This document shows, piece by piece, positions 17,604 through 30,014 of a stretch of DNA of 64,000 nucleotides. Each line of letters opens with the position of its first letter. Within the stretch, counting starts at the first letter, position 1. Source of the DNA: Pelodictyon luteolum (GTDB lineage: Bacteria > Bacteroidota > Chlorobiia > Chlorobiales > Chlorobiaceae); contig DYNE01000001.1 in NCBI GenBank assembly GCA_020721225.1, positions 55,603-119,602 of the forward strand. The letters run 5' to 3'. Position numbers and translations under genes: made by a program. The notes beneath the pieces were generated by a model, which made no database searches, was not told the DNA's origin, and saw nothing but the letters and a program-made list of their open reading frames with translations.

Positions 17604-19042
17604 TTCGTATGGAAGAAACTACCCTGAAAAAAGGTGACGTTATAGAGTTGACGGTTACCGATTTTGCCGATAAGGATAGTTGTTTCGGACGTCTTGATAG
17701 TGGCATCAGCGTAATGATAACCGGCATGCTGGCTCCCGGCGACCGGGTGAAAGCCCTCATCAGAAAAGTGAAGCAACGCTATATCGAGGCTTCAGCCGTT
17801 GAAATGACGATGTTGTCTTCCGATCGGGTAGAGCCGATATGCTCATATTTCGGGGTTTGCGGAGGGTGCAAGCTCATGCATATTTCATACGAGGCACAGT
17901 TGCGTTACAAGCGAAAAAAGGTCATTGACGATCTTGTACATATCGGCGGTTTTATCGATCCTCCCGTACATCCCGTGCTTCCGGCCCGCTCTTCCTGTCA
18001 TTACCGCAACAAGGTCGAGCTTTCCTGTTCGAGTATCCGTTATCTTATGCCGGCAGAGCTTTCGCAGGAGGAGCTTTCCCGTTCGAGGGATTTCGGTCTT
18101 GGATTTCATGCTCCGGGAAACTACGAGAAGGTGATCGACATCGATTACTGCTATCTGGCCAACGAGTCGATGAACAGCGTGCTCAGGCTGACCCGTGAAT
18201 TTGCTCTCGCCAATCGCCTCGCCCCTTATGCGGTCAAAGCTCACGCCGGCTTTCTGCGCAATCTGGTGCTGCGTACAAGCGAGCATACCGGGAGGCTTAT
18301 GGTCAATATCGTTACTTCATGGTATGACCGCGAATTGATGGCCCGTTATGTCGATATGCTTGTCGCCGCGCTTCCGGATCAGGATCTGACGGTTGTAAAC
18401 AATGTCACGACAAAAAAGAACACGGTTGCTACAGGTGAGCAGGAGTACGTGGTTTATGGTGAGGGGACGCTGACGGAACGGCTTGGCGAACTCGATTTCA
18501 GGGTTTCGGCAAACTCTTTTTTCCAGACTAACTCATCACAGGCCGCAGTTCTCTACGCCGAGATACTCAAAGTGGCAGGAATCAGGCCGGATGATACCGT
18601 TTATGATCTTTACTGCGGCACCGGTACCATAACGCTTTATCTTGCAGGGCACTGCCGAATGGCTGCAGGGTTGGAGGTTGTAGAGAGTTCACTCAGTGAT
18701 GCGGCAAAGAACGCCGATTTGAATGGCATCACCAATGCAGTGTTTTTTCAGACAGATCTGAAAGATTTTCATGCGATGCTGCAGAAGCTTGGAAATTATG
18801 ATGCCCCAGGTGTCATTGTGACGGACCCTCCAAGAGCCGGCATGCATCCGAAAGCTCTTGAAACCATGCTCAAGCTCGGAGCCCGTACGATCGTCTATGT
18901 GAGCTGTAATCCGTCTAATCTTGCCAGGGACGGCAAGGAGATCGCCCGTAACGGATACCGGCTGGTTTCAGTGCAGCCGGTCGATATGTTTCCTCACACG
19001 GTGCATGTAGAAAGCGTTGCCTGTTTCGAGAGGGAGCTGTAG
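17600..19042 (+). CDS. 23S rRNA (uracil)-methyltransferase, RlmD/TrmA family
   Basis: TRAM-like N-term, CSYFGVCGGCKLMH Fe-S cysteines, YDLYCGTGTITLYLA, VTDPPRAGMHPKAL, YVSCNPSNLARD. Confidence 0.92.
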   Translation: MIRMEETTLKKGDVIELTVTDFADKDSCFGRLDSGISVMITGMLAPGDRVKALIRKVKQRYIEASAVEMTMLSSDRVEPICSYFGVCGGCKLMHISYEAQLRYKRKKVIDDLVHIGGFIDPPVHPVLPARSSCHYRNKVELSCSSIRYLMPAELSQEELSRSRDFGLGFHAPGNYEKVIDIDYCYLANESMNSVLRLTREFALANRLAPYAVKAHAGFLRNLVLRTSEHTGRLMVNIVTSWYDRELMARYVDMLVAALPDQDLTVVNNVTTKKNTVATGEQEYVVYGEGTLTERLGELDFRVSANSFFQTNSSQAAVLYAEILKVAGIRPDDTVYDLYCGTGTITLYLAGHCRMAAGLEVVESSLSDAAKNADLNGITNAVFFQTDLKDFHAMLQKLGNYDAPGVIVTDPPRAGMHPKALETMLKLGARTIVYVSCNPSNLARDGKEIARNGYRLVSVQPVDMFPHTVHVESVACFEREL

Positions 19043-19053
19043 CCCCTCTTCTT

Positions 19054-19165
19054 CAAAATCTGTATCGAAATCGGTTTCCAAATCGAAATCGATTTCCTCT
19101 CTCCCGTCCTTCCGAAATCGCCTATGGTGGCGAACCTGCGTGTTCGTCCCCAAGTTTCCTATAGA
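19054..19165. repeat. Low-complexity GAAATC/GATTTC tract followed by a short palindromic repeat-like element
   Basis: atcgaaatcggtttccaaatcgaaatcgatttc then GGTGGCGAACCTGCGTGTTCGTCCCC (19127-19152; CGAAC/GTTCG arms) and GTTTCctataGAAAC. Confidence 0.45.
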
Positions 19166-19206
19166 AACCAAGTGTACTTTTTGCTCCGAAATATTTTTAT
19201 AAATAC

Positions 19207-20019
19207 TTATCTCAGTCCTCGTCCCCTGGCTTCCAGGTGTGTTATATACCCAATCTCAGTGAATTCGACTTTAAAATCGGATTTACTCCGTTTACCACGG
19301 AATAGCTTGACGCTTGGATTCTGGCCTCGAAGAATCAGGGCGATGATTTCAAGTGCCTCGCCAGTTATTTCGGGGCCAAAGTAAACACCGGTTAGCGCTT
19401 CCGCCTCATAGTGATAGAGAGTATCAACATTCTTGTGAACTATGCGCCACTCCTGTTCATAGAGCCATGATTTCGACTTGATCAGATAAAAATCTTTGGC
19501 TGCATTGGTTGCCTCTAAATCAGACCCTATCAGGTAAGGGATTACAGAAGCATCGGGCACACGATCGACGTATTTGACTTGATCAGCTTGTGAGAATGGT
19601 AGGTGATCTGTTGAAAATTCCAGGCAAAACCCCTTGTATTTCCCCCCATAGTGACCCCACATGAGAAGATCGTTGTTGATCTCTGAAAAACACGTTATCC
19701 CTCGCTCTTTGCCAAAGCGTTCAACAGTTGATGATATGGCTTCAGCGCCAATTCGCTGAAACATTTCTTGCAATTCATCAACCGGCATTTGCTCGAATTT
19801 CAGCTTTGCCTCCTGTGGCGTTGTCTCGTCGGTGAGATAATGCTGCCGGATAGACTCGACCTCTTGAGGTGATGGCTGCAACACGACAGGGTTGGTTGCA
19901 CAGTCGTATGGATCGTTGAAGTCCAATGGTGATCCAAAATAGATCCCTTGCGCCTTAAGATTCTCAAGTGCCTGAGTGCTGAACGCCTCGTACTTGTAAA
20001 GCTTTGGCGGAAGCTTCAT
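19207..20019 (-). CDS. DUF2971 domain protein
   Basis: 270 aa; LYKYEAFSTQALENLKAQGIYFGSPLDFNDPYDC ... ITCFSEINNDLLMWGHYGGKYKGFCLEF. Confidence 0.85.
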   Translation of the reverse strand: MKLPPKLYKYEAFSTQALENLKAQGIYFGSPLDFNDPYDCATNPVVLQPSPQEVESIRQHYLTDETTPQEAKLKFEQMPVDELQEMFQRIGAEAISSTVERFGKERGITCFSEINNDLLMWGHYGGKYKGFCLEFSTDHLPFSQADQVKYVDRVPDASVIPYLIGSDLEATNAAKDFYLIKSKSWLYEQEWRIVHKNVDTLYHYEAEALTGVYFGPEITGEALEIIALILRGQNPSVKLFRGKRSKSDFKVEFTEIGYITHLEARGRGLR

Positions 20020-20094
20020 TTTTCGATCAGTTTAATGACGGGTATGGCTGGTGAAGGGGCATTCGGAGGTGAAGCGATTGCGTTGGAAAAATTA

Positions 20095-20589
20095 TCATCG
20101 TTCTCCACCCAAAATAAAACGAGCCCGCTCCACACGCAACATTTCATAAGGTGTCATGAATCGCAGATGGAGTCCGATGCAGGCATTGGGAATCTTGATG
20201 CGGCGTAGGGAGTTGGCGGGTACTTCGTGCGTTACGACCACGTGTCCGCCTGAAAGTGCATGGGCTACAAGATAGAAATCCGCTACCTGGAGAAAGGTGT
20301 TGATTGCCGCAGGTTCGTACTCCTGACTGGTTGCCCATGAGCTTACCTGACCAAATTTTTCAATTGTCCGGCTATCGGTACCGAGAAACAAATTCCATGC
20401 ATGATTGTTCATCCAGTTGGTCAGTTCATCAGCCCCGGCAGCAATTTCGTCAGCAACCTTGTCGATGCTGAAAACCTTTCCTGTAGCATTGCTTTCGATC
20501 AGCCATTCCCAAAATGCAGGGCAGAAATCAAGGCCGTAATGCAGATTTTTGGCCTGGATGAAAACATTGGCGTCGAGCAGGTAGGTCAT
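20095..20589 (-). CDS. DUF4411 PIN-like putative toxin
   Basis: MTYLLDANVFIQAKNLHYGLDFCPAFWEWL ... VADFYLVAHALSGGHVVVTHE; overlaps the metallopeptidase gene. Confidence 0.85.
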   Translation of the reverse strand: MTYLLDANVFIQAKNLHYGLDFCPAFWEWLIESNATGKVFSIDKVADEIAAGADELTNWMNNHAWNLFLGTDSRTIEKFGQVSSWATSQEYEPAAINTFLQVADFYLVAHALSGGHVVVTHEVPANSLRRIKIPNACIGLHLRFMTPYEMLRVERARFILGGER

Positions 20590-21737
20590 GGCATCACTCC
20601 CAATTCATGAGCAGCCTCGTAAAACGTTGCCGATTTGCGAATGCCAAGCAGACGGAATGCGTCTCTGAAGAGGGTATGACCTTCCAAAGCACTGGAAAGT
20701 ACGGCTCGAGCAAAGCGTTTGCCGTTACGCGCGCCAAGAGTCCGGTAGAAATCGCCTCCGCCGCTTTTGTTTCCTTCAAGCGAAAGAATGCGATCAAGCT
20801 CTTGCCGATAGCATTGGTTCATTGCCTCCCGGGTCATGAGACCGGCTTCATACAAACGTCGAAGTACGACAAGGGTGCTGACTTTGAAAAACCGCGCAAG
20901 CCGTTGCAGTTCATCGTTGACTGCCAGTGCGGAATTATAAACAGCGTGCAGCTCATCGGCAGGTACCAGCAATTCGGCTGCGACATGGTTGCACCATCGC
21001 TCGATCTGCTGATCAGGAAGAACTCCGGCTTCCGGGGCAGACAGGCCGGTTGCTGCAAGCCAGAGGTGCGCCAGTTCATGTGCCAATGTAAACATCTGCG
21101 CGGCTTTGCTGTCGGCCGTATTCAGAAACACCAGCGGCGCGAACTCATCGGCGAGAGCAAAACCACGGAACTCTTTTGTATCCAATTTCCGATGGCTGTT
21201 ACTGCCGACAATTGAGGTGGCCATGACAAGCACACCGGCATCTTCTGCCTTTGCGACAAGCTGACGCAGTGCATCTGTCCATGTTGGCAGTGTTTGCCGT
21301 TCAGCGACAGAGAGTAACAGAGTCTGGCGCATCTGTGCAGCAACAGTTTCAGGATTGTCAGTTAGTGTAACACTTCCGACAAACAGTAATGGCTGTAATC
21401 CCTGCATCAGGGCATAGTCGCGATACCACTCCTGTCGTTGCTGGCACAGAAAGATAGTGTCGAGCAATGCTGTGCTGGGTTCACGAAAAAGAGTGTCATG
21501 ATGAGTGCGGAAATCCGGAACAGGCAAGGGAACCTCCGGAGGGTCCGGGAGGAAAAAATATCCAAACGGGGTATGCGTGAGCCGGGCAAACTCCTCCAGT
21601 TGTTTCAAAGTTGGCAGTGCTTCGCCTCTCAGCCATAATGGCCATTTCCTGAACCGTTTTTCCAGCTCGGTATCACTGAGCCAAGCCCTGCTGGCCGCCC
21701 ACTGCAATACAGGAATGGAAGCAGGAACCGTGCTCAT
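20586..21737 (-). CDS. ImmA/IrrE-family metallopeptidase with XRE-like N-terminus (putative antitoxin)
   Basis: MFTLAHELAHLWLA (HExxH), N-terminal LPTLKQLEEFARLTHTPFGYFFLPDPPE typical of XRE-COG2856 proteins; 4-bp overlap with the DUF4411 gene. Confidence 0.85.
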   Translation of the reverse strand: MSTVPASIPVLQWAASRAWLSDTELEKRFRKWPLWLRGEALPTLKQLEEFARLTHTPFGYFFLPDPPEVPLPVPDFRTHHDTLFREPSTALLDTIFLCQQRQEWYRDYALMQGLQPLLFVGSVTLTDNPETVAAQMRQTLLLSVAERQTLPTWTDALRQLVAKAEDAGVLVMATSIVGSNSHRKLDTKEFRGFALADEFAPLVFLNTADSKAAQMFTLAHELAHLWLAATGLSAPEAGVLPDQQIERWCNHVAAELLVPADELHAVYNSALAVNDELQRLARFFKVSTLVVLRRLYEAGLMTREAMNQCYRQELDRILSLEGNKSGGGDFYRTLGARNGKRFARAVLSSALEGHTLFRDAFRLLGIRKSATFYEAAHELGVMP

Positions 21738-22018
21738 GTTTCAGCGTGAAAGTTTAAAAAATTCGCTGCCATTATCCGCCGGGTAGGGAACGAAAAATAA
21801 ATATAACATACGAAACGCATTTAACGTGCCCCGCGTCGTACTATACCTTACGTCCCAACCCTCATTCTGCAATTGGAACCGCTACTCAGCTATCGATGCA
21901 GGCCTGATTAGTGATTACGGCAGGATGGAATCATTTATATGATTGTGTCGTATATTGTACGCGATAGCAGTGTACACGAAGAAAATTTACAAGAAAAGCT
22001 GATGTTGAAAATATCACC

Positions 22019-22222
22019 GTGAGCGCCGATGCGGAGCTTATTCGCAAGGCGAGGGAAAAGGCGCAGCGTGAACATACCACCCTGAACGAAACCTTCAGAG
22101 GCTGGCTCAGGCAGTATGTCAAGGCAGAGGTACGGGTAAGGGAGTTCTATGCTCTGATGCAATCTCTCGACTATGTCAGGCCTGTTAGAACGTTCAGCCG
22201 GGCGGAGTTGAATGAACGGTAA
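22019..22222 (+). CDS. Small VapB-like antitoxin (start uncertain; GTG or further upstream)
   Basis: SADAELIRKAREKAQREHTTLNETFRGWLRQY ribbon-helix-helix-like; overlaps a PIN pseudogene. Confidence 0.6.
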   Translation: MSADAELIRKAREKAQREHTTLNETFRGWLRQYVKAEVRVREFYALMQSLDYVRPVRTFSRAELNER

Positions 22223-22554
22223 CTATTTCCTCGACACCAACATTTTCGTTTACTCTTTTGACCTATCGAATCCCATCCAGAAGGTGATCGCGATCTGACT
22301 GATAAGGATTGCCTTGCAAGGACGGTTATGGCATGGTCAGCTCCCAGGTCGTTCAGGAGTTCATTAACGTATCGACGAGGAAATTCGAGGTACACTTCTC
22401 TGTCAGTGATTATCGGAACTATCTGGATTCGGTGTTTGATGGACTTTGCCGGGTCAGCACAACTGTTGAGCTATGCCAGTCAGCACTCGATGTCATGGAG
22501 CGCTGGGGCTACAGCAACTACGATTCCCTGACTATCGTCAATCCGTTTTTTTGA
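22212..22554 (+). pseudogene. Degraded PIN-domain (VapC-like) toxin
   Basis: Frame 1: MNGNYFLDTNIFVYSFDLSNPIQKVIAI*LIRIALQG; other frame: DGYGMVSSQVVQEFINVSTRKF...LDVMERWGYSNYDSLTIVNPFF*; stop, frameshift and apparent C-terminal deletion. Confidence 0.8.
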
Positions 22555-22726
22555 TCGTGAGTCGCTGTTAACGCATCGTTTTACGGAATATTTTTCGAAG
22601 GGATCCCCCTCCCATTGCGCTTCATGATCGCTCTGATGGTTGTTTCCCGTAGTTTCTCAGCATACATTGAGATATGCCATTCATGATCGAATATTTTCAC
22701 TTCCCCGGATATCAAACCACGGATAA

Positions 22727-25700
22727 ATGGCTCACAGCACATTTCAATACGATGTTTTCCTGAGCCACAACAGGGCTGACAAGCCGCGGGTGCGGGCGCT
22801 GGCCGAGCGGTTGCGTTCGGCGGGGTTGCGGGTGTGGTTCGACGAGTGGGTCATCAAACCCGGCGACGACATTTACCTCTCCATCGAGCGCGGGCTGGAG
22901 GCGGCGCGGGTGCAGGTGCTCTGCCTGTCGTCCGAAGCTCTCGGGTCGGAGTGGGTTGCGCTCGAACGCAGCACGGTGCTCTTCCGCGACCCGACGAACG
23001 CAGGCCGCCGCTTCGTCCCGCTGCTGCTCGCCGATTGCAATCTGCCCGACACACTGAGGCGCTACAAGTACGTGGATTTCCGCGAGGATGCGCAAGGCGC
23101 GTTTGACGAGCTGCTGGCGGTGTGCCGGGAGGTGGAACATGTACAGCCTGCGTTACAGCCAGAGGTTATTGCGGAATCGGGAAAATCAATTCCAGTGGAG
23201 CTCCCTGAGCCGACAGTAGCTTATGCTGAGCTGGAAAGCGCGCTCATTGGGCAAATGAACTGGGTTTGCAGCGTGGCCGTTAGCCCGGATGGTACTTGGG
23301 CTGTAACTGGAAATGCTGGAAATCCATTAAGTGAATTTACAATAAGTATTTGGGATTTGAAGACGGGAAAATGTAGTAAAAGATTGAAGGGGCATAATGC
23401 TATGGTATGGTCCGTAGCTATTACTCCAGATGGAAAGAGAATTCTTTCGAGTTCGAACGATCAGACTGTTCGAGTATGGGATGTAGAATCAGGTCTGGAA
23501 AAAATAAAGTTACAGGGGCATATTGGAACCATATGGTCTGTTGTTGCATTCGCTGACAACATACATGCTCTTTCTGCGGGAGTTACAGACAAGACAATTC
23601 GGTTGTGGGAGTTGGTTTCTGGCAAATGTATCAAAACGATAAAGTGTGGTTATAAAAATTCGGATTCCGTTTTCAGTGTGGCGGTTAATAAAGCAGGTAC
23701 AAGAGTTGTTTCAGGGCATCAGAGTGGGCAGTTGCGGCTCTGGAATATCAAAACAGGCCACTGTATAGCCATAATGCGAGGTCATTCAGATACAGTGAAC
23801 TCTGTTAAGATTATGCCGGATGATCGATTTGCTATTTCAGGATCAAGCGATAATACTCTTAAGGTCTGGGATCTTGAAATGGGAATTTGTGTTGGAACAC
23901 TTGAGGGCCATAAGGACATAGTGCATTCAGTAGCGATTGCCCCTGATGGCACGTTGATTGCTTCAACAGGCTTCAATGATCACTCAGTTCGGCTTTGGAA
24001 TTGGAAGTCGGGAGAGTGCTTGTATGTGATTAAAGGCAAATATATGGAGGGGCCTATTTCAACTGTTTTTAGTCCAGATGGTCAGCGGCTTTTTGTCGGA
24101 ACAGCAACTCCCTCGCTGATTTATGTTTATCACCTTACCGGTATCCGCGCCACTTCGCTCGCAGAACCTACGCGTAGTTATGTCAACGCCAAGGTCGTGC
24201 TGCTCGGTGAAGGGTCAGTAGGAAAGACGTCGCTGGCGCATAGGTTGATAGAGGACAGGTATGTCGTCAAGGATCGCACGCATGGGATGAATGTGTGGCC
24301 GTTAAAGCTTCCACTGCCGCCGGATGCGTCCATCGAGCGCGAGGCGTTGCTTTGGGACCTGGCGGGGCAGGAGGATTACCGGTTGATCCACCGCTTGTTT
24401 CTCGACGAGACGGCGCTGGCCCTGTTGCTCATCAATCCGCAGAAGGACGATCCATTTGCCGAGGCGGGTGACTGGCTCAAGGCGCTTGATATGGCTGTCG
24501 ACAATCACGATGCGAAACGCGCCGCCGAAAAGCTGCTCCTCTTTTCGCAGATTGACGTTGGCGGTATGAAGGTCGGCAATGCCAAAATCGAGCGCTTCAT
24601 TCAGAAACACGGGTTCAAGGCGTGGCTCGAAACCAGCGCCAAGACGGGCGAGAACTGTTCGGACGAAGCCTGTGGCGGCACTCCGTCGAAGCTGAAGCAG
24701 CTCATCGCGGATTGCATTCCGTGGGACAAGCTGCCGTGGACGGCCACGCCGCGCCTGCTCGCCGAGCTGAAAAGCGCTCTGCTGAAAATGCGTGATACGG
24801 CGGACATCCGCCTGCTGCGCTTTGCCGAGCTGGCGCAACGACTCGAACAGGCTCTGCCGGGTGAGAAGTTCGGCGACTCCGAGGTGCGCACGGCGGTGAC
24901 GCTCCTCGCCAACCACGGTCTCGCGAGGGCGCTGAAGTTCGGCGACCTTGTGCTCTTGCAGCCCGAGCTGCTGAACGGCTACGCCGGGGCGATCATCCGC
25001 GCGGCCCGTGCCCACAAGGACGAGATCGGCTGCGTGCCGGAAGCAAGTATCTACGATTCGGAGTTCGACTTTACCGGCGTTGACCGTCTGCCGCGTCCGG
25101 ACGAAGAGTTGCTGCTGCGGGCGATGGTGCAGACCTTCCTCGACCACTCGCTCTGCATCGCCGAAGAGACGCCGAAGGGCCGCCATCTGGTGTTCCCCTC
25201 GCAGTATCGCCGCGAACGGGACATTCCGAAGGAACCGGAGGTTTTCGTTTCCTACACCTTCAACGGCGAGTGGCAAACCATCTGGACGACGCTCGTGGTG
25301 AGGCTCTGGTACGGTCACGAGTTCGAGCACAAGGAGTTGTGGCGCAACGCAGCCGAGTTTTCTTCCTCCCGCGGCCATTTGCTTGGCCTGAAGATCGATA
25401 ACCGGCAGGGCGAAGGCGAAGCGACGATCAGCCTCTTTTTCGACCTTCAGACGCCGGACGATCTGAAGGTGATTTTCATCGAATACGTGCATCGCCACCT
25501 CGCCCGGTACGGCTGCAACGTCACGCGAGACCGGCGATATATTTGTGCTTGCGGCAAACGTGTCACCGATCTTGCTGAAGTGCAGAAACGCCTTTCGGAT
25601 GGCAAAGAGTTCATTTACTGTCAGGGCTGTGACGAGAAAGTACCGTTGATCGATTTCATTGAGCAGCACCTCAAGAGTGACCCGGTTGCACAAAAGATCA

Positions 25701-26185
25701 TGGCGATGGAGGAGCGAGCAACACAGGAACTCGATAACCAGGCGCTGGAGCAAATCCTGATCGGCCACATGATGGCGACTTGCGGCGAGGCGAACCAGGT
25801 GTTCCGTCCAACAAGCATGTTCGATTACGGTATCGATGGCGAGGTGGAGTTCCGGGACAACAGCGGTCAGCCCAGCGGCAGGAAAATCTACGTCCAGCTC
25901 AAGAGCGGCAACTCGTATCTGCGCACGCGCCGGAGCGATGGACAGGAAATTTTCAATGTCAAAAATGACCGCCATCTTGACTACTGGCTCAACCAGCCGG
26001 TCAATGTCTGGCTCGTTATCCGCCAGACCGATGAACGAACCGGCGAGCAGACCATTCGCTGGATGGACGTGACAAGTTACCTGAAAACCCGGAACGACAA
26101 GCAGAGCCGACAGATCGTTTTCGATGGCGAAAATTTGACGATGAAAGCGGTATGGAGGCTTCGCGACAGGTATTTTCCAGCGTAA
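22727..26185 (+). CDS. TIR - WD40 (7 repeats) - Roc GTPase - COR-like - zinc ribbon - DUF4365 protein (candidate immune effector/sensor)
   Basis: 1152 aa. TIR: YDVFLSHNRADKPRVRALAERLRSAGLRVWFDEW...LGSEWVALERS; seven WD-like blades ending ~24150; Roc: VVLLGEGSVGKTSLAHRLI, DLAGQEDYRLIHRLF, ETSAKTGEN; CACGK...CQGC; C-term TQELDNQALEQILIGHMMATCG...FDYGIDGEVEF...IYVQLKSG. Confidence 0.88.
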   Translation: MAHSTFQYDVFLSHNRADKPRVRALAERLRSAGLRVWFDEWVIKPGDDIYLSIERGLEAARVQVLCLSSEALGSEWVALERSTVLFRDPTNAGRRFVPLLLADCNLPDTLRRYKYVDFREDAQGAFDELLAVCREVEHVQPALQPEVIAESGKSIPVELPEPTVAYAELESALIGQMNWVCSVAVSPDGTWAVTGNAGNPLSEFTISIWDLKTGKCSKRLKGHNAMVWSVAITPDGKRILSSSNDQTVRVWDVESGLEKIKLQGHIGTIWSVVAFADNIHALSAGVTDKTIRLWELVSGKCIKTIKCGYKNSDSVFSVAVNKAGTRVVSGHQSGQLRLWNIKTGHCIAIMRGHSDTVNSVKIMPDDRFAISGSSDNTLKVWDLEMGICVGTLEGHKDIVHSVAIAPDGTLIASTGFNDHSVRLWNWKSGECLYVIKGKYMEGPISTVFSPDGQRLFVGTATPSLIYVYHLTGIRATSLAEPTRSYVNAKVVLLGEGSVGKTSLAHRLIEDRYVVKDRTHGMNVWPLKLPLPPDASIEREALLWDLAGQEDYRLIHRLFLDETALALLLINPQKDDPFAEAGDWLKALDMAVDNHDAKRAAEKLLLFSQIDVGGMKVGNAKIERFIQKHGFKAWLETSAKTGENCSDEACGGTPSKLKQLIADCIPWDKLPWTATPRLLAELKSALLKMRDTADIRLLRFAELAQRLEQALPGEKFGDSEVRTAVTLLANHGLARALKFGDLVLLQPELLNGYAGAIIRAARAHKDEIGCVPEASIYDSEFDFTGVDRLPRPDEELLLRAMVQTFLDHSLCIAEETPKGRHLVFPSQYRRERDIPKEPEVFVSYTFNGEWQTIWTTLVVRLWYGHEFEHKELWRNAAEFSSSRGHLLGLKIDNRQGEGEATISLFFDLQTPDDLKVIFIEYVHRHLARYGCNVTRDRRYICACGKRVTDLAEVQKRLSDGKEFIYCQGCDEKVPLIDFIEQHLKSDPVAQKIMAMEERATQELDNQALEQILIGHMMATCGEANQVFRPTSMFDYGIDGEVEFRDNSGQPSGRKIYVQLKSGNSYLRTRRSDGQEIFNVKNDRHLDYWLNQPVNVWLVIRQTDERTGEQTIRWMDVTSYLKTRNDKQSRQIVFDGENLTMKAVWRLRDRYFPA

Positions 26186-26314
26186 CCCGGAGTGCTTGAA
26201 GCCCCATAGGATCTCGGATTTGCTGAACGAGGCTGTGCGTTCCATTCAGGCAGAATACTGTACGCTGCATTGACGGTGGCATTGGTACTTAAGGGAAGTG
26301 AGGTAAATAGTCTG

Positions 26315-26785
26315 CTATGAGTTTATACTTTCTTCCTTTATCTCCTCGAACACCGCATCGATGATGTTTGGACGGGGTTCATCAGCAGCTTTTGCAACGC
26401 TTTTTTCCCATGCGAGGAACCGTTCGAGATCCTGATTGATAGAGGCCAGTACAGCGGAAAGAATAGCGGCATCGTCGGCAAAGCCCAGAAGCGGAATGAA
26501 ATCGGCCAGAGCATCAAATGGTGCGACAAGGTAGATCAGAGCTGCCGTAACGGCTACAATGGTCTGCCAGGGGATATCCACGTACTCCTTCTGTACATAG
26601 GATCGTATCATTCTTACGAGAGCCTGGACTTTTTCTCCAAGACCGAAGAGTGGGAATGTGCTGTTTTTGGCCGATGAGGATCTGCTGAATGCCGTATCGA
26701 GCAGTTTTTTTGTTTTCACCGGGTCTTTAAGCAGAGACGAGGCTTTGTTTTTTGCCGAGTCAAAAATTTGTTTTGTTCCTTTCAT
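26315..26785 (-). CDS. DUF1232 (YkvA-like) membrane protein
   Basis: ALIYLVAPFDALADFIPLLGFADDAAIL signature. Confidence 0.85.
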   Translation of the reverse strand: MKGTKQIFDSAKNKASSLLKDPVKTKKLLDTAFSRSSSAKNSTFPLFGLGEKVQALVRMIRSYVQKEYVDIPWQTIVAVTAALIYLVAPFDALADFIPLLGFADDAAILSAVLASINQDLERFLAWEKSVAKAADEPRPNIIDAVFEEIKEESINS

Positions 26786-26817
26786 TGGACAGTGAAGGTC
26801 AAGCCTGTTATCGGGCG

Positions 26818-27648
26818 TTATTTTCCTCCAGCCTTCAGGAGCTTTCGTTTTTCCTCGTTACTCAACGATTCATAGCCTTTGCTGGAGATTTTGTCAAGAA
26901 TTGCATCGATCTCTTCCTCCGGTACCGGTTTGTCTCTTTCGTCGATATGGTGTATTGCCGCCTGCCTGGGATTCTTTTTTACCGGTTGTAACTTCCCGGT
27001 CCATTGTTTCAGGGTCCAGCCCTGTCTCCTTATGATGATGTAGAGGAACCCGATTAGCATGCCTCCGAGATGGGCAAAGTGAGCGATGTTGCTGCCGCTT
27101 CCCATCGTTCTGCTGCCAAGCCCGGACAGAAACTCGATAGCTGCATATCCGGCGACAAAATACTTTGCCTTTATGGGGAAAAGAAAATACAGGAAAATGT
27201 AACGGTTGGGAAACATCATGCCGAACGCGAGCAGGACTCCGTAAATTGCTCCCGATGCTCCTACCGTAGGGTAGGCGTCTCCTATGGTCGTGAGCAGATT
27301 GATAAATGCGGCTCCAATGCCGCAGACGAAGTAATAGATGTTGAACTGCCGGGTTCCCCAGTAATTTTCGAGTTCCGCACCGAATATCCAGAGAGCGAAC
27401 ATATTGAAAAAGAGGTGCCCGAAGCTGCCGTGCAGAAACATGTAGGTTACCGGCTGCCATATCTGGAACGAAACGCCCCCCTGATTTTCGGAAGCAAGAG
27501 GCCACAGTGCGCCGGCAGCGGTAATAAACGCTCCGAAAGGTGAACTCTGGAACAGAAAGACCGCAACATTTGCCAGAATGATGGTCTTGATGGCCGGGGG
27601 CATAACCTGAAATCCCCCGGGGCTGTATGGCTGATTGTTATAATTCAT
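26818..27648 (-). CDS. Rhomboid-family intramembrane serine protease
   Basis: FLHGSFGHLFFNMFALWIFG, TVGASGAIYGVLLAF (GASG catalytic Ser), HFAHLGGMLIGF. Confidence 0.93.
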   Translation of the reverse strand: MNYNNQPYSPGGFQVMPPAIKTIILANVAVFLFQSSPFGAFITAAGALWPLASENQGGVSFQIWQPVTYMFLHGSFGHLFFNMFALWIFGAELENYWGTRQFNIYYFVCGIGAAFINLLTTIGDAYPTVGASGAIYGVLLAFGMMFPNRYIFLYFLFPIKAKYFVAGYAAIEFLSGLGSRTMGSGSNIAHFAHLGGMLIGFLYIIIRRQGWTLKQWTGKLQPVKKNPRQAAIHHIDERDKPVPEEEIDAILDKISSKGYESLSNEEKRKLLKAGGK

Positions 27649-27695
27649 GTTTCGGTCATCTGTTGCTGTACATCGAGTGTAATGGGTATGGCCGC

Positions 27696-28889
27696 TTAAT
27701 CGTTCAGAGCGGCGATACCAGGGAGTTCCTTTCCTTCAAGAAATTCCAGACTTGCTCCTCCACCGGTTGAAATATGGGTTATCTGATCGGCCAGACCGGC
27801 TTTGGCAACCGCAGCTGCGGAATCGCCTCCGCCGATAATGGTTGTCGCTCCGGCAGCAGTGGCGTCGGCCATGGCTTCGGCAATGGCAATAGTTCCTTCT
27901 GCAAAACGGTCGATTTCAAATACTCCCATCGGACCATTCCAGAGTACCGTACGGGCGCCAAGAATTTCCTGTCTGTAGGCGGCTCTTGTTTCCGGGCCTA
28001 TATCAACGCCGATCATGCCATCAGGAATTGCGTTTACGGCAACAGCCATGCTTTCGGCATCCGCAGATATTTCAGGTGCAATGATGATATCCTGAGGAAG
28101 CAGCAGTTTTATGTTTTTCCGGGCGGCCTGCTCAATCAGGCTGAGCGCCAGTTCGAGTTTGTTCTCTTCGACCAGCGAATTTCCCGTACCAAGTCCCTGC
28201 GCCTTGAAGAAGGTAAAGACCATAGCCCCTCCGATCAGGACAGTATCGACCTTATTGAAGAGATTTTCCAGAACATCGATTTTGCCGGAAATTTTGGAGC
28301 CGCCGAGAATGGCTACAAAAGGCCTTTCGGGTTCCTGAAGGGCTTTGCCGAGGTACATCAGCTCTTTTTCGATCAGATAACCGGCGACAGCGGTCTGGAC
28401 ATATCGGGTGATGCCTTCGGTAGATGCATGGGCTCTGTGGGCCGTTCCGAATGCGTCGTTTACGTAGATCTCTCCAAGAGAAGCGAGTTCTTTTGCAAAA
28501 TCGGGATCATTTGCCTCTTCTTCAGCGTGAAAACGAAGGTTCTCCAGCATGATGACCTCTCCGTCCTGCAAAGCAAGCACCTGCTGCATCACTTCGGTAC
28601 CTATGCAGTCGCCAGCCATGATGACAGGGCAGTCGAGAAGCTCGGAGAGTCTTGCCGCTGCCGGAGTAAGAGAAAAATCCTGGTTTGGCTTGCCTTTCGG
28701 TCTGCCGAGATGGGACATGAGGATAAGGCGGCCTCCGTTTTCAATGACTTTTTTAATCGATGGAAGCGCTTCAACGATTCGTTTGTCGTCGGTGATGTTT
28801 TTCTCCTCGTCGAGGGGAACATTGAAATCGACACGCATCAGTATCCGTTTGCCTTGGATTGTTATGTCAGACAAGGTCTTTTTCTGCAT
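27696..28889 (-). CDS. pgk: Phosphoglycerate kinase
   Basis: [59 protein letters not shown]. Confidence 0.98.
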
Positions 28890-28983
28890 TGTATTATGAA
28901 GGTTGGTTATGGGATGAATTAAAAACTCAGAATACTAATATAATTTATTTCTTTCATGCAACCGGATGCATGCGGCTTCTGTT

Positions 28984-29997
28984 TCATGGTTTCGCGCTGT
29001 TACGGGCTGCCCGGTATTTTCTGATATTCTGTTCGTGCCCGGCAAGTGTCGATGCGAAATAATGGCCTCCGGTTCCCGTAGCTACGAAATAGAGGTATTC
29101 TGTTTGAGCCGGATTCAGTACGGCAAGAATCGATGAGGCTCCCGGATTGCAGATAGGCCCCGGAGGCAGTCCGTCGTGACGGTAAGTGTTATACGGGGAG
29201 TCAACCTTGAGATCCTTGTACAAGAGCAAACGGGCTTCCTCGCCGAGAGCGTACTGTACGGTGGGATCCGCCTGAAGGCGCATGTTTTTTTTCAGCCGGT
29301 TCAGATAGACGCTTGCAACGACCGGTTTTTCCGCATCGAGAGGCGTTTCCGCCTCAACTATCGAGGCGAGCGTCAGCAATGCGCTTTCCGTCAGCCCTTG
29401 TAAAGATGTGCGCTTTTTCAGGCTGTCGTTATAGAAGGAGCGGAACTGCCGGACAAGAAAACCTGCCGCTTCTTCAGGAGTATCCGCCCAGGCGAAATGA
29501 TAGGTTCCCGGGAACAGGTATCCTTCCGCACTGTTACTTCTGATGCCGTAACGATCAAGAAATCTGCGGTTCTGCACTGCCGACATGAAGCGGATGGAAT
29601 CCATATCGAGCCGGGATGCAAGCAGCCGGGCGATTTCCCGCTGTTCGAGCCCCTCGGGAATGGTGATCTGCACTTCGTCCTGAGGATGGGTGCGCAGGAA
29701 GTAAAGGAGCTGAAAATTCGACAGCCCCGGAGGAATGGAGTATCTTCCGGGTTTGATTTTGTGAAATCCCGGAAGAGATCTGCCGGCCATAATGGTTTGC
29801 CATCGACTGTTTATTGTGCCGCTTTTCTGCATCTCTTCGACAATGCGCATAAACCCCATTCCCCGGTGTACGGTAATTGCGGTGACCTTTTCCGAGGTGT
29901 TGAGGCCCGGAATGAACAGGATAGAGCTGAAAACCGAGGCCGCAAGGAGCAGAATGGCGATCAGGGATTTTCGAAAAAGTAACTTATCTGACAGCAT
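28984..29997 (-). CDS. mltG: Endolytic murein transglycosylase MltG (YceG-like)
   Basis: ASIVEAETPLDAEKPVVASVYLNRL, LQADPTVQYALG, SPYNTYRHDGLPPGPICNPG. Confidence 0.95.
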   Translation of the reverse strand: MLSDKLLFRKSLIAILLLAASVFSSILFIPGLNTSEKVTAITVHRGMGFMRIVEEMQKSGTINSRWQTIMAGRSLPGFHKIKPGRYSIPPGLSNFQLLYFLRTHPQDEVQITIPEGLEQREIARLLASRLDMDSIRFMSAVQNRRFLDRYGIRSNSAEGYLFPGTYHFAWADTPEEAAGFLVRQFRSFYNDSLKKRTSLQGLTESALLTLASIVEAETPLDAEKPVVASVYLNRLKKNMRLQADPTVQYALGEEARLLLYKDLKVDSPYNTYRHDGLPPGPICNPGASSILAVLNPAQTEYLYFVATGTGGHYFASTLAGHEQNIRKYRAARNSAKP

Positions 29998-30014
29998 GAT
30001 TGATGAAGCCGGTT

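Follow-up and report, generated by a model that had tools for sequence, protein, structure and literature searches.

A WD40-Roc-COR protein of Pelodictyon luteolum carrying TIR and DUF4365 domains is a probable stand-alone immune receptor

We analysed a stretch of 64,000 nucleotides from Pelodictyon luteolum (contig DYNE01000001.1 of assembly GCA_020721225.1, positions 55,603 to 119,602; hereafter the window), in which a single gene joins an N-terminal TIR domain, a WD40 propeller, a Roc GTPase, a COR domain, a cysteine knuckle, and a C-terminal DUF4365 domain. This protein is probably a stand-alone Roco-type, NLR-like immune receptor whose two effectors cause abortive infection. By sequence and fold, this reading is based on the domain order, conserved catalytic and nucleotide-binding residues, a hypervariable propeller face, a patchy horizontal distribution, and the lack of a constant partner gene. 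The features of the gene, in window coordinates, are as follows.

22727-26185, forward strand: whole gene, 1152 amino acids, TIR-WD40(7)-Roc-COR-Zn-DUF4365 (open reading frame (ORF), Pfam, AlphaFold model)
22742-23122, forward strand: TIR domain, residues 6-132 (Pfam TIR_2; bacterial TIR structures 3h16 and AbTIR in the PDB)
22964-22966, forward strand: predicted catalytic Glu80 of the TIR domain (WxxxE), present in all TIR sequences of the close family
23225-24136, forward strand: seven-bladed WD40 propeller, residues 167-470, with hypervariable top face (model, TM-score, divergence and entropy)
24179-24730, forward strand: Roc GTPase, residues 485-668 (Pfam Roc/Ras; profile matches to Rab/Ras chains and 3dpu)
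24206-24229, forward strand: P-loop GEGSVGKT, residues 494-501 (G494, G499, and K500 invariant in 42 sequences)
24731-25516, forward strand: COR domain, residues 669-930 (AlphaFold, Foldseek, profile-profile match with LRR-Roc-COR)
25517-25651, forward strand: four-cysteine knuckle, C940, C942, C965, and C968 (conserved in 58 sequences)
25733-26170, forward strand: DUF4365 PD-(D/E)xK nuclease domain, residues 1003-1148 (Pfam; DUF4365/DREN-APAZ structures 9qbq and 9jsb in the PDB)
25895-25903, forward strand: Q1057-L-K1059, predicted nuclease active-site residues, conserved in nearly all DUF4365 sequences and equivalent to the QxK of TmuRE

The gene is single-copy in its own genome, where the other matches are WD40-only, and a 647-amino-acid antisense ORF (24302-26245) is best interpreted as a shadow ORF. 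Searching the whole protein against Pfam returned TIR_2, many WD40 models, Roc/Ras, and DUF4365, and a full-length structure was predicted with ColabFold/AlphaFold from 42 sequences (mean predicted local distance difference test score, pLDDT, of 81). The architecture lies far beyond chance, because close relatives in many phyla share the domain order. A first-pass annotation made from the DNA sequence had described one 1152-residue ORF fusing six modules: a TIR domain with putative catalytic E80, exactly seven WD-like blades forming one propeller, a Roc-type GTPase with GEGSVGKT and DLAGQEDY, a COR-like region, a CxC...CxxC zinc ribbon, and a DUF4365 domain. The ORF proved exact in length and coordinates, and all six parts were recovered by the analyses below.

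The centre of the protein carries the Roco signature. Roc/Ras matches in Pfam over residues 489-645 (E-value 9e-16), DLAGQEDY lies at residues 544-551, and the P-loop and WDxAGQ switch II motifs expected of a Ras-like Roc domain are present and invariant. Pfam returned nothing useful between Roc and DUF4365, including no match to COR, and we therefore tested for COR by fold, modelling the stretch after Roc separately from 58 sequences (pLDDT 84). The best PDB matches of this model in Foldseek were to LRR-Roc-COR and COR structures of the Chlorobium tepidum Roco protein (CtRoco; 6hlu, 3dpu, and 3dpt), LRRK1, and LRRK2, with E-values from 1e-11; TM-scores were about 0.4, so the arrangement of sub-domains is flexible or diverged. 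Alignment with hhalign to LRR-Roc-COR-TIR proteins of Chlorobiaceae gave a probability of 99.7% for Roc-COR, across 447 columns, and one of 94% when COR was compared by itself. Judged by fold and profile, the Pfam-negative region directly after Roc is a true COR domain, and the protein as modelled is a Roco protein with a WD40 propeller in place of the leucine-rich repeats (LRR). The knuckle that follows likely binds zinc, as C940, C965, and C968 are invariant and C942 nearly so in the same number of sequences (58).

In the full-length model the propeller comprises 28 strands, or seven blades of four, mostly with pLDDT above 90, and it superimposes on solved seven-bladed WD40 domains with a TM-score of 0.95. 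It is also the part of the protein that changes most. Between full-length members, median identity is 0.50 for the propeller and 0.69 for TIR, 0.76 for Roc, 0.78 for COR, and 0.74 for DUF4365; the propeller was less conserved than TIR in 189 of 190 pairs, and less conserved than Roc, COR, and DUF4365 in all 190. The change is concentrated on one face: mean entropy is 3.12 bits at 22 top-face sites vs 1.59 bits at 272 other propeller sites (Mann-Whitney p 1e-11, a descriptive value because the sites were picked after viewing the entropy profile). These sites form two residue pairs per blade: one, in the d-a loop, surrounds the conserved residue that opens strand a, and the other, in the b-c turn, surrounds a conserved Asp. 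Near relatives share only 9-32% of residues at the top-face sites, compared with 50-67% elsewhere in the propeller and 75-95% of core residues. The variable sites coincide with the two residue pairs reported to be under positive selection in fungal HNWD genes, which are located on the top of the propeller (PMC1805685). The mean ratio of nonsynonymous to synonymous substitutions (dN/dS) did not exceed 1 in the propeller (0.14-0.37), and near-identical tandem blades of the HET-E kind were not found, only weak blade-length matches. We also considered whether WD40 domains drift fast as a general rule, which is ruled out by relatives in Calothrix/Nostoc and Chloroflexi whose propellers evolve at about the rate of the core; fast change is therefore no property of the fold. 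In Lentzea and some other relatives the propeller is fast too.

The route by which the propeller diversifies is an evenly balanced question, in which swapping of entire propellers or gene conversion between loci stands opposite single-site diversifying selection; exchange would be compatible with a sensor role. Nucleotide identity to the nearest relatives is block-like, at about 90% in TIR, mostly 50-65% in the linker and propeller (about 57%), and about 90% again in Roc-COR. Silent divergence from these relatives jumps to 1.4-2.8 inside the propeller vs about 0.2-0.7 in the TIR and Roc-COR flanks, which argues for exchange or conversion besides point change, although errors in aligning the repeats may inflate the propeller values. 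The best partner of the propeller differed from that of the core in 20 of 27 cases, yet no donor closely resembling the window protein's propeller was found. Two tandem copies occur in Chlorobium sp. L227-S-6D (L040:7086-14804), with propellers about 60% identical and Roc-COR about 82% identical.

The two ends of the protein carry predicted enzymes. TIR_2 matches over residues 10-130 (E-values 6e-29 to 1.3e-29), and E80, within W76-x3-E80, aligns with the Glu region of AbTIR-type NADases and is retained in every TIR domain present in the close family, so that both the family and the catalytic residue agree with a predicted NADase, an enzyme acting on nicotinamide adenine dinucleotide (NAD+). 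At the other end, DUF4365 matches over residues 1024-1146 (E-values 6e-22 to 3.3e-23), and the domain has the PD-(D/E)xK-type core with QxK found in DUF4365/DREN nucleases. D1037, E1039, and the QxK are retained in nearly all DUF4365 sequences, the exceptions being L063, with a broken tail, and L089, with an eroded one. Q1057 and K1059 correspond to Q62 and K64, which were predicted and mutated in TmuRE, a nuclease that degrades DNA non-specifically once its Argonaute is triggered (PMC10810196). The domain is thus a predicted nuclease acting on nucleic acid. A single executioner is possible, if on the unlikely side: TIR might signal or scaffold while the nuclease kills, or the nuclease might be a DNA-binding sensor while TIR kills. 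Consistent with this, the basal relatives L086, L087, L090, and L133 manage without TIR, and other relatives end in TIR and lack the nuclease; the catalytic residues of both domains are nevertheless conserved across large distances in the clade with N-terminal TIR, which speaks against this alternative.

To place the protein among its relatives, we scanned 84,980 genomes and recovered at least 315 loci related to the Roc-COR-zinc core; the 80 best matches were examined. Seven relatives could be aligned with the window protein over the full length, and hidden Markov models assigned 25 ORFs with this N-terminal TIR and about 35 with DUF4365 to the close group. Within the class, full-length copies were present in 7 of 98 genomes including that of the window, one of which (Chlorobium sp. 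L227-S-6D) has two in tandem, and remnants were present in several others. Hosts span at least six named phyla, and their record titles include Chlorobiaceae, Pseudomonadota, Acidobacteriota, Verrucomicrobiota, Planctomycetota, and Eisenbacteria. A large share of them are metagenome-assembled genomes with short contigs, for which single host names may be wrong, but Magnetospirillum UT-4 is not labelled as such a genome and several contigs are longer than 80 kb. The core tree, built by a quick method with Shimodaira-Hasegawa-like approximate likelihood ratio (SH-aLRT) support only and no inferred root, contradicts taxonomy: Chlorobiaceae appear in two places and a Geobacteraceae copy nests with a Chlorobium copy, which points to horizontal transfer. 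In this tree a single change accounts for DUF4365, and the N-terminal TIR lies within a clade of 30 sequences (support 98) inside the DUF4365 clade, a nesting that suggests the nuclease joined first and TIR later. The TIR-less members of the 30-sequence clade are truncated or have TIR in a neighbouring broken frame (L068 and L082), and the ORFs examined for the basal L086, L087, L089, L090, and L133 contain no TIR (L089 being cut by a contig end).

Across the wider family the WD40-Roc-COR-zinc arrangement is kept and the C-terminal effector is swapped. The ends include TIR, SEFIR-like, nucleotide cyclase, metallophosphoesterase, NACHT, nucleoside phosphorylase (PNP), and CHAT domains, which are typical effectors of predicted conflict systems (PMC8195603). 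Neighbouring genes were heterogeneous, and no constant or conserved partner was seen in the neighbourhoods examined; a single-gene system is therefore the best reading.

From these observations we propose a mechanism in which the propeller would use its variable top face to bind a molecule derived from or altered by an invader, and binding would change the GTP state and the oligomeric state of the Roc-COR switch in one direction or the other. CtRoco cycles between dimer and monomer with nucleotide (PMC5714945). The switch would then release the TIR NADase and the DUF4365 nuclease of the same polypeptide, presumably together, to deplete NAD+ and cut nucleic acid, and the death or dormancy of the infected cell would stop the spread of what is presumed to be a phage. 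The immune-receptor reading is supported by the conserved effector residues, the COR fold, the swapped effectors, and the focused propeller variation, as well as by the occurrence in at least six phyla, the conflict between tree and taxonomy, the patchy presence, and two genomic observations given below, namely the replacement of the middle of the gene by an ATPase gene and the neighbours in the window. We give even chances to the broader proposition that this is a horizontally spread dual-effector WD40-Roco family, in which an LRRK2-type immune switch with a fungal-NLR-like diversifying face fires an NADase and a nuclease together.

Several points weigh against an immune receptor of this kind. 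The TIR domain has low confidence in the full-length AlphaFold model (pLDDT 38-60 in the central part) owing to sparse sequence coverage there, and its assignment therefore rests on sequence; conservation of catalytic residues is no proof of activity. Many neighbours are housekeeping or toxin-antitoxin genes, in a comparison that included no formal test of defence-island enrichment. Lastly, phage records yielded no copy, and none of 54 pattern matches in viral contigs was confirmed, so no link to a mobile defence element is evident. It is improbable, though worth weighing, that the protein is instead a receptor for self/non-self or inter-bacterial conflict, sensing effectors of other bacteria or altered host proteins rather than phage and killing its own host cell: its top face varies in the pattern of the fungal allorecognition receptors HET-D/E (PMC1805685, PMC12222747) and many hosts appear to come from mats, sediments, or aggregates, but phage defence commonly employs the same effectors and no secretion or contact genes were tied to the gene in the neighbourhoods examined. 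Least probable, and in our view very doubtful, is a regulatory Roco protein of normal physiology whose propeller drifts under weak constraint; eukaryotic Roco proteins signal, prokaryotic functions are largely unknown (PMC6337361), and the mean propeller dN/dS is below 1, but weak constraint would not concentrate change on a binding face, the near-equal rates in Calothrix/Nostoc and Chloroflexi speak against it, and patchy presence and decay fit conflict genes.

Compared with described systems, the nearest are the LRR-AP-GTPase-COR proteins of Kaur et al. 2021, which were predicted as conflict systems with at least 24 C-terminal domains (PMC8195603). Like these single-gene proteins, the window protein has a Roc-COR switch, a fast-evolving repeat sensor in front of it, and an interchangeable effector (TIR among those described); unlike them it has WD40 in place of LRR and is not limited to an effector at the C-terminus, and the accessible part of that paper mentions neither DUF4365 nor an extra N-terminal TIR. 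CtRoco comes from the same bacterial family and shares Roc-COR by profile and fold, but has an LRR sensor and was solved as a construct without TIR or nuclease. The Chlorobiaceae LRR-Roc-COR-TIR proteins (such as L050 and L055) are of the same genus and share Roc-COR plus TIR, whereas their sensor is LRR, their C-terminal TIR is of another subfamily, and they have no nuclease tail. All prokaryotic Roco proteins known to a 2019 review belonged to the plain LRR-Roc-COR group (PMC6337361), from whose N-terminal LRR the present propeller departs. SPARDA and related DUF4365-APAZ (DREN-APAZ) systems use a DUF4365 nuclease whose active site contains the same QxK, and APAZ proteins with double effectors of REase plus TIR have been described (PMC10810196; also a PADLOC model), but SPARDA is a two-gene system activated by a guide-directed Argonaute, while the window protein combines propeller and Roc-COR in one gene, has no APAZ, and has no Argonaute among the window neighbours scanned. 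Fungal HNWD proteins HET-D/HET-E likewise have a WD40 sensor in which each blade bears two pairs of hypervariable residues on its top face; they differ in their NACHT STAND switch, HET effector, and near-identical repeats, and we claim no homology of the whole proteins. AVS and other bacterial STAND NLR-like proteins share the single-gene logic of sensor, switch, and effector but use a STAND ATPase, unlike the Roc/Ras-type GTPase here.

The first-pass annotation had proposed a candidate undescribed immune system, perhaps standing alone without an obvious partner, with the propeller as sensor, Roc-COR as switch, and TIR and/or DUF4365 as effectors. The proposed roles and the absence of a partner agree with our results. 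No model in PADLOC 2.0.0 or NCBIfam 20 covered the architecture, giving only separate TIR, WD40/HEAT-ARM, GTP-binding, and DUF4365 matches, and no directly relevant literature linking Roco proteins with phage defence was found in a literature collection with few subscription journals. The general kind had nonetheless been predicted in 2021, and because LRR-Roc-COR proteins with variable effectors were already predicted conflict systems (PMC8195603), the protein is a new variant of these and not categorically new.

Roco proteins have been studied because of LRRK2, the Parkinson's protein, and CtRoco is one of their main structural models. The role of bacterial Roco proteins is largely unknown (PMC6337361), and a close cousin of CtRoco with two immune-type effectors and a diversified face offers a testable case of bacterial Roc-COR as an immune switch. 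Such a protein would couple NAD+ depletion with nucleic-acid cleavage in one polypeptide, and its recognition surface may have converged with that of fungal receptors.

Within the window, the gene is bordered on one side by genes for an M78 peptidase (RmrA-like), DUF4411, and DUF2971 (PDC-S31), in that order at 19207-21737, and on the other by DUF1232, rhomboid, and pgk genes. The M78-DUF4411 pair recurs by sequence near the same site in another genome (L048:8407-10040), and the pgk-rhomboid-DUF1232 flank recurs in other Chlorobiaceae with an adjoining macrodomain gene. Upstream of the gene, 22003-22560 looks by eye like a VapBC-like remnant, with a 67-amino-acid antitoxin-like ORF and a frameshifted PIN-like frame, for which there was no Pfam match. 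No RNA families were detected at 18000-30000. In two Chlorobiaceae (L045:7612-10285 and L046:4232-6929) an AAA_15/AbiEii-like ATPase gene, whose best PADLOC models are the defence ATPases NsnB and AriA, sits where the middle of the gene should be, flanked by the initial 40 TIR residues and the final 124 DUF4365 residues at about 88% identity; a defence-like gene seems to have displaced the central part of another one at this site.

Other relatives extend the range of architectures. Chlorobiaceae carry LRR-Roc-COR-TIR proteins in which a CtRoco-type core is fused to TIR (L050:4552-7314, L051:5058-7742, and L055:3726-6965), which suggests an immune role for relatives of CtRoco too. Lentzea WD40-Roc-COR proteins (L111, L119, L122, L132, and L135) mostly end in TIR and have 684-1056 residues before the core; in L111 this part contains a NACHT N-terminal helical domain and an AAA/NACHT-like NTPase, making two switches per protein. 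In a member of the Verrucomicrobiaceae (L081:4257-8037), a TIR gene and a SIR2 gene precede a propeller-less TIR-Roc-COR-DUF4365 gene, placing three possible NADases side by side.

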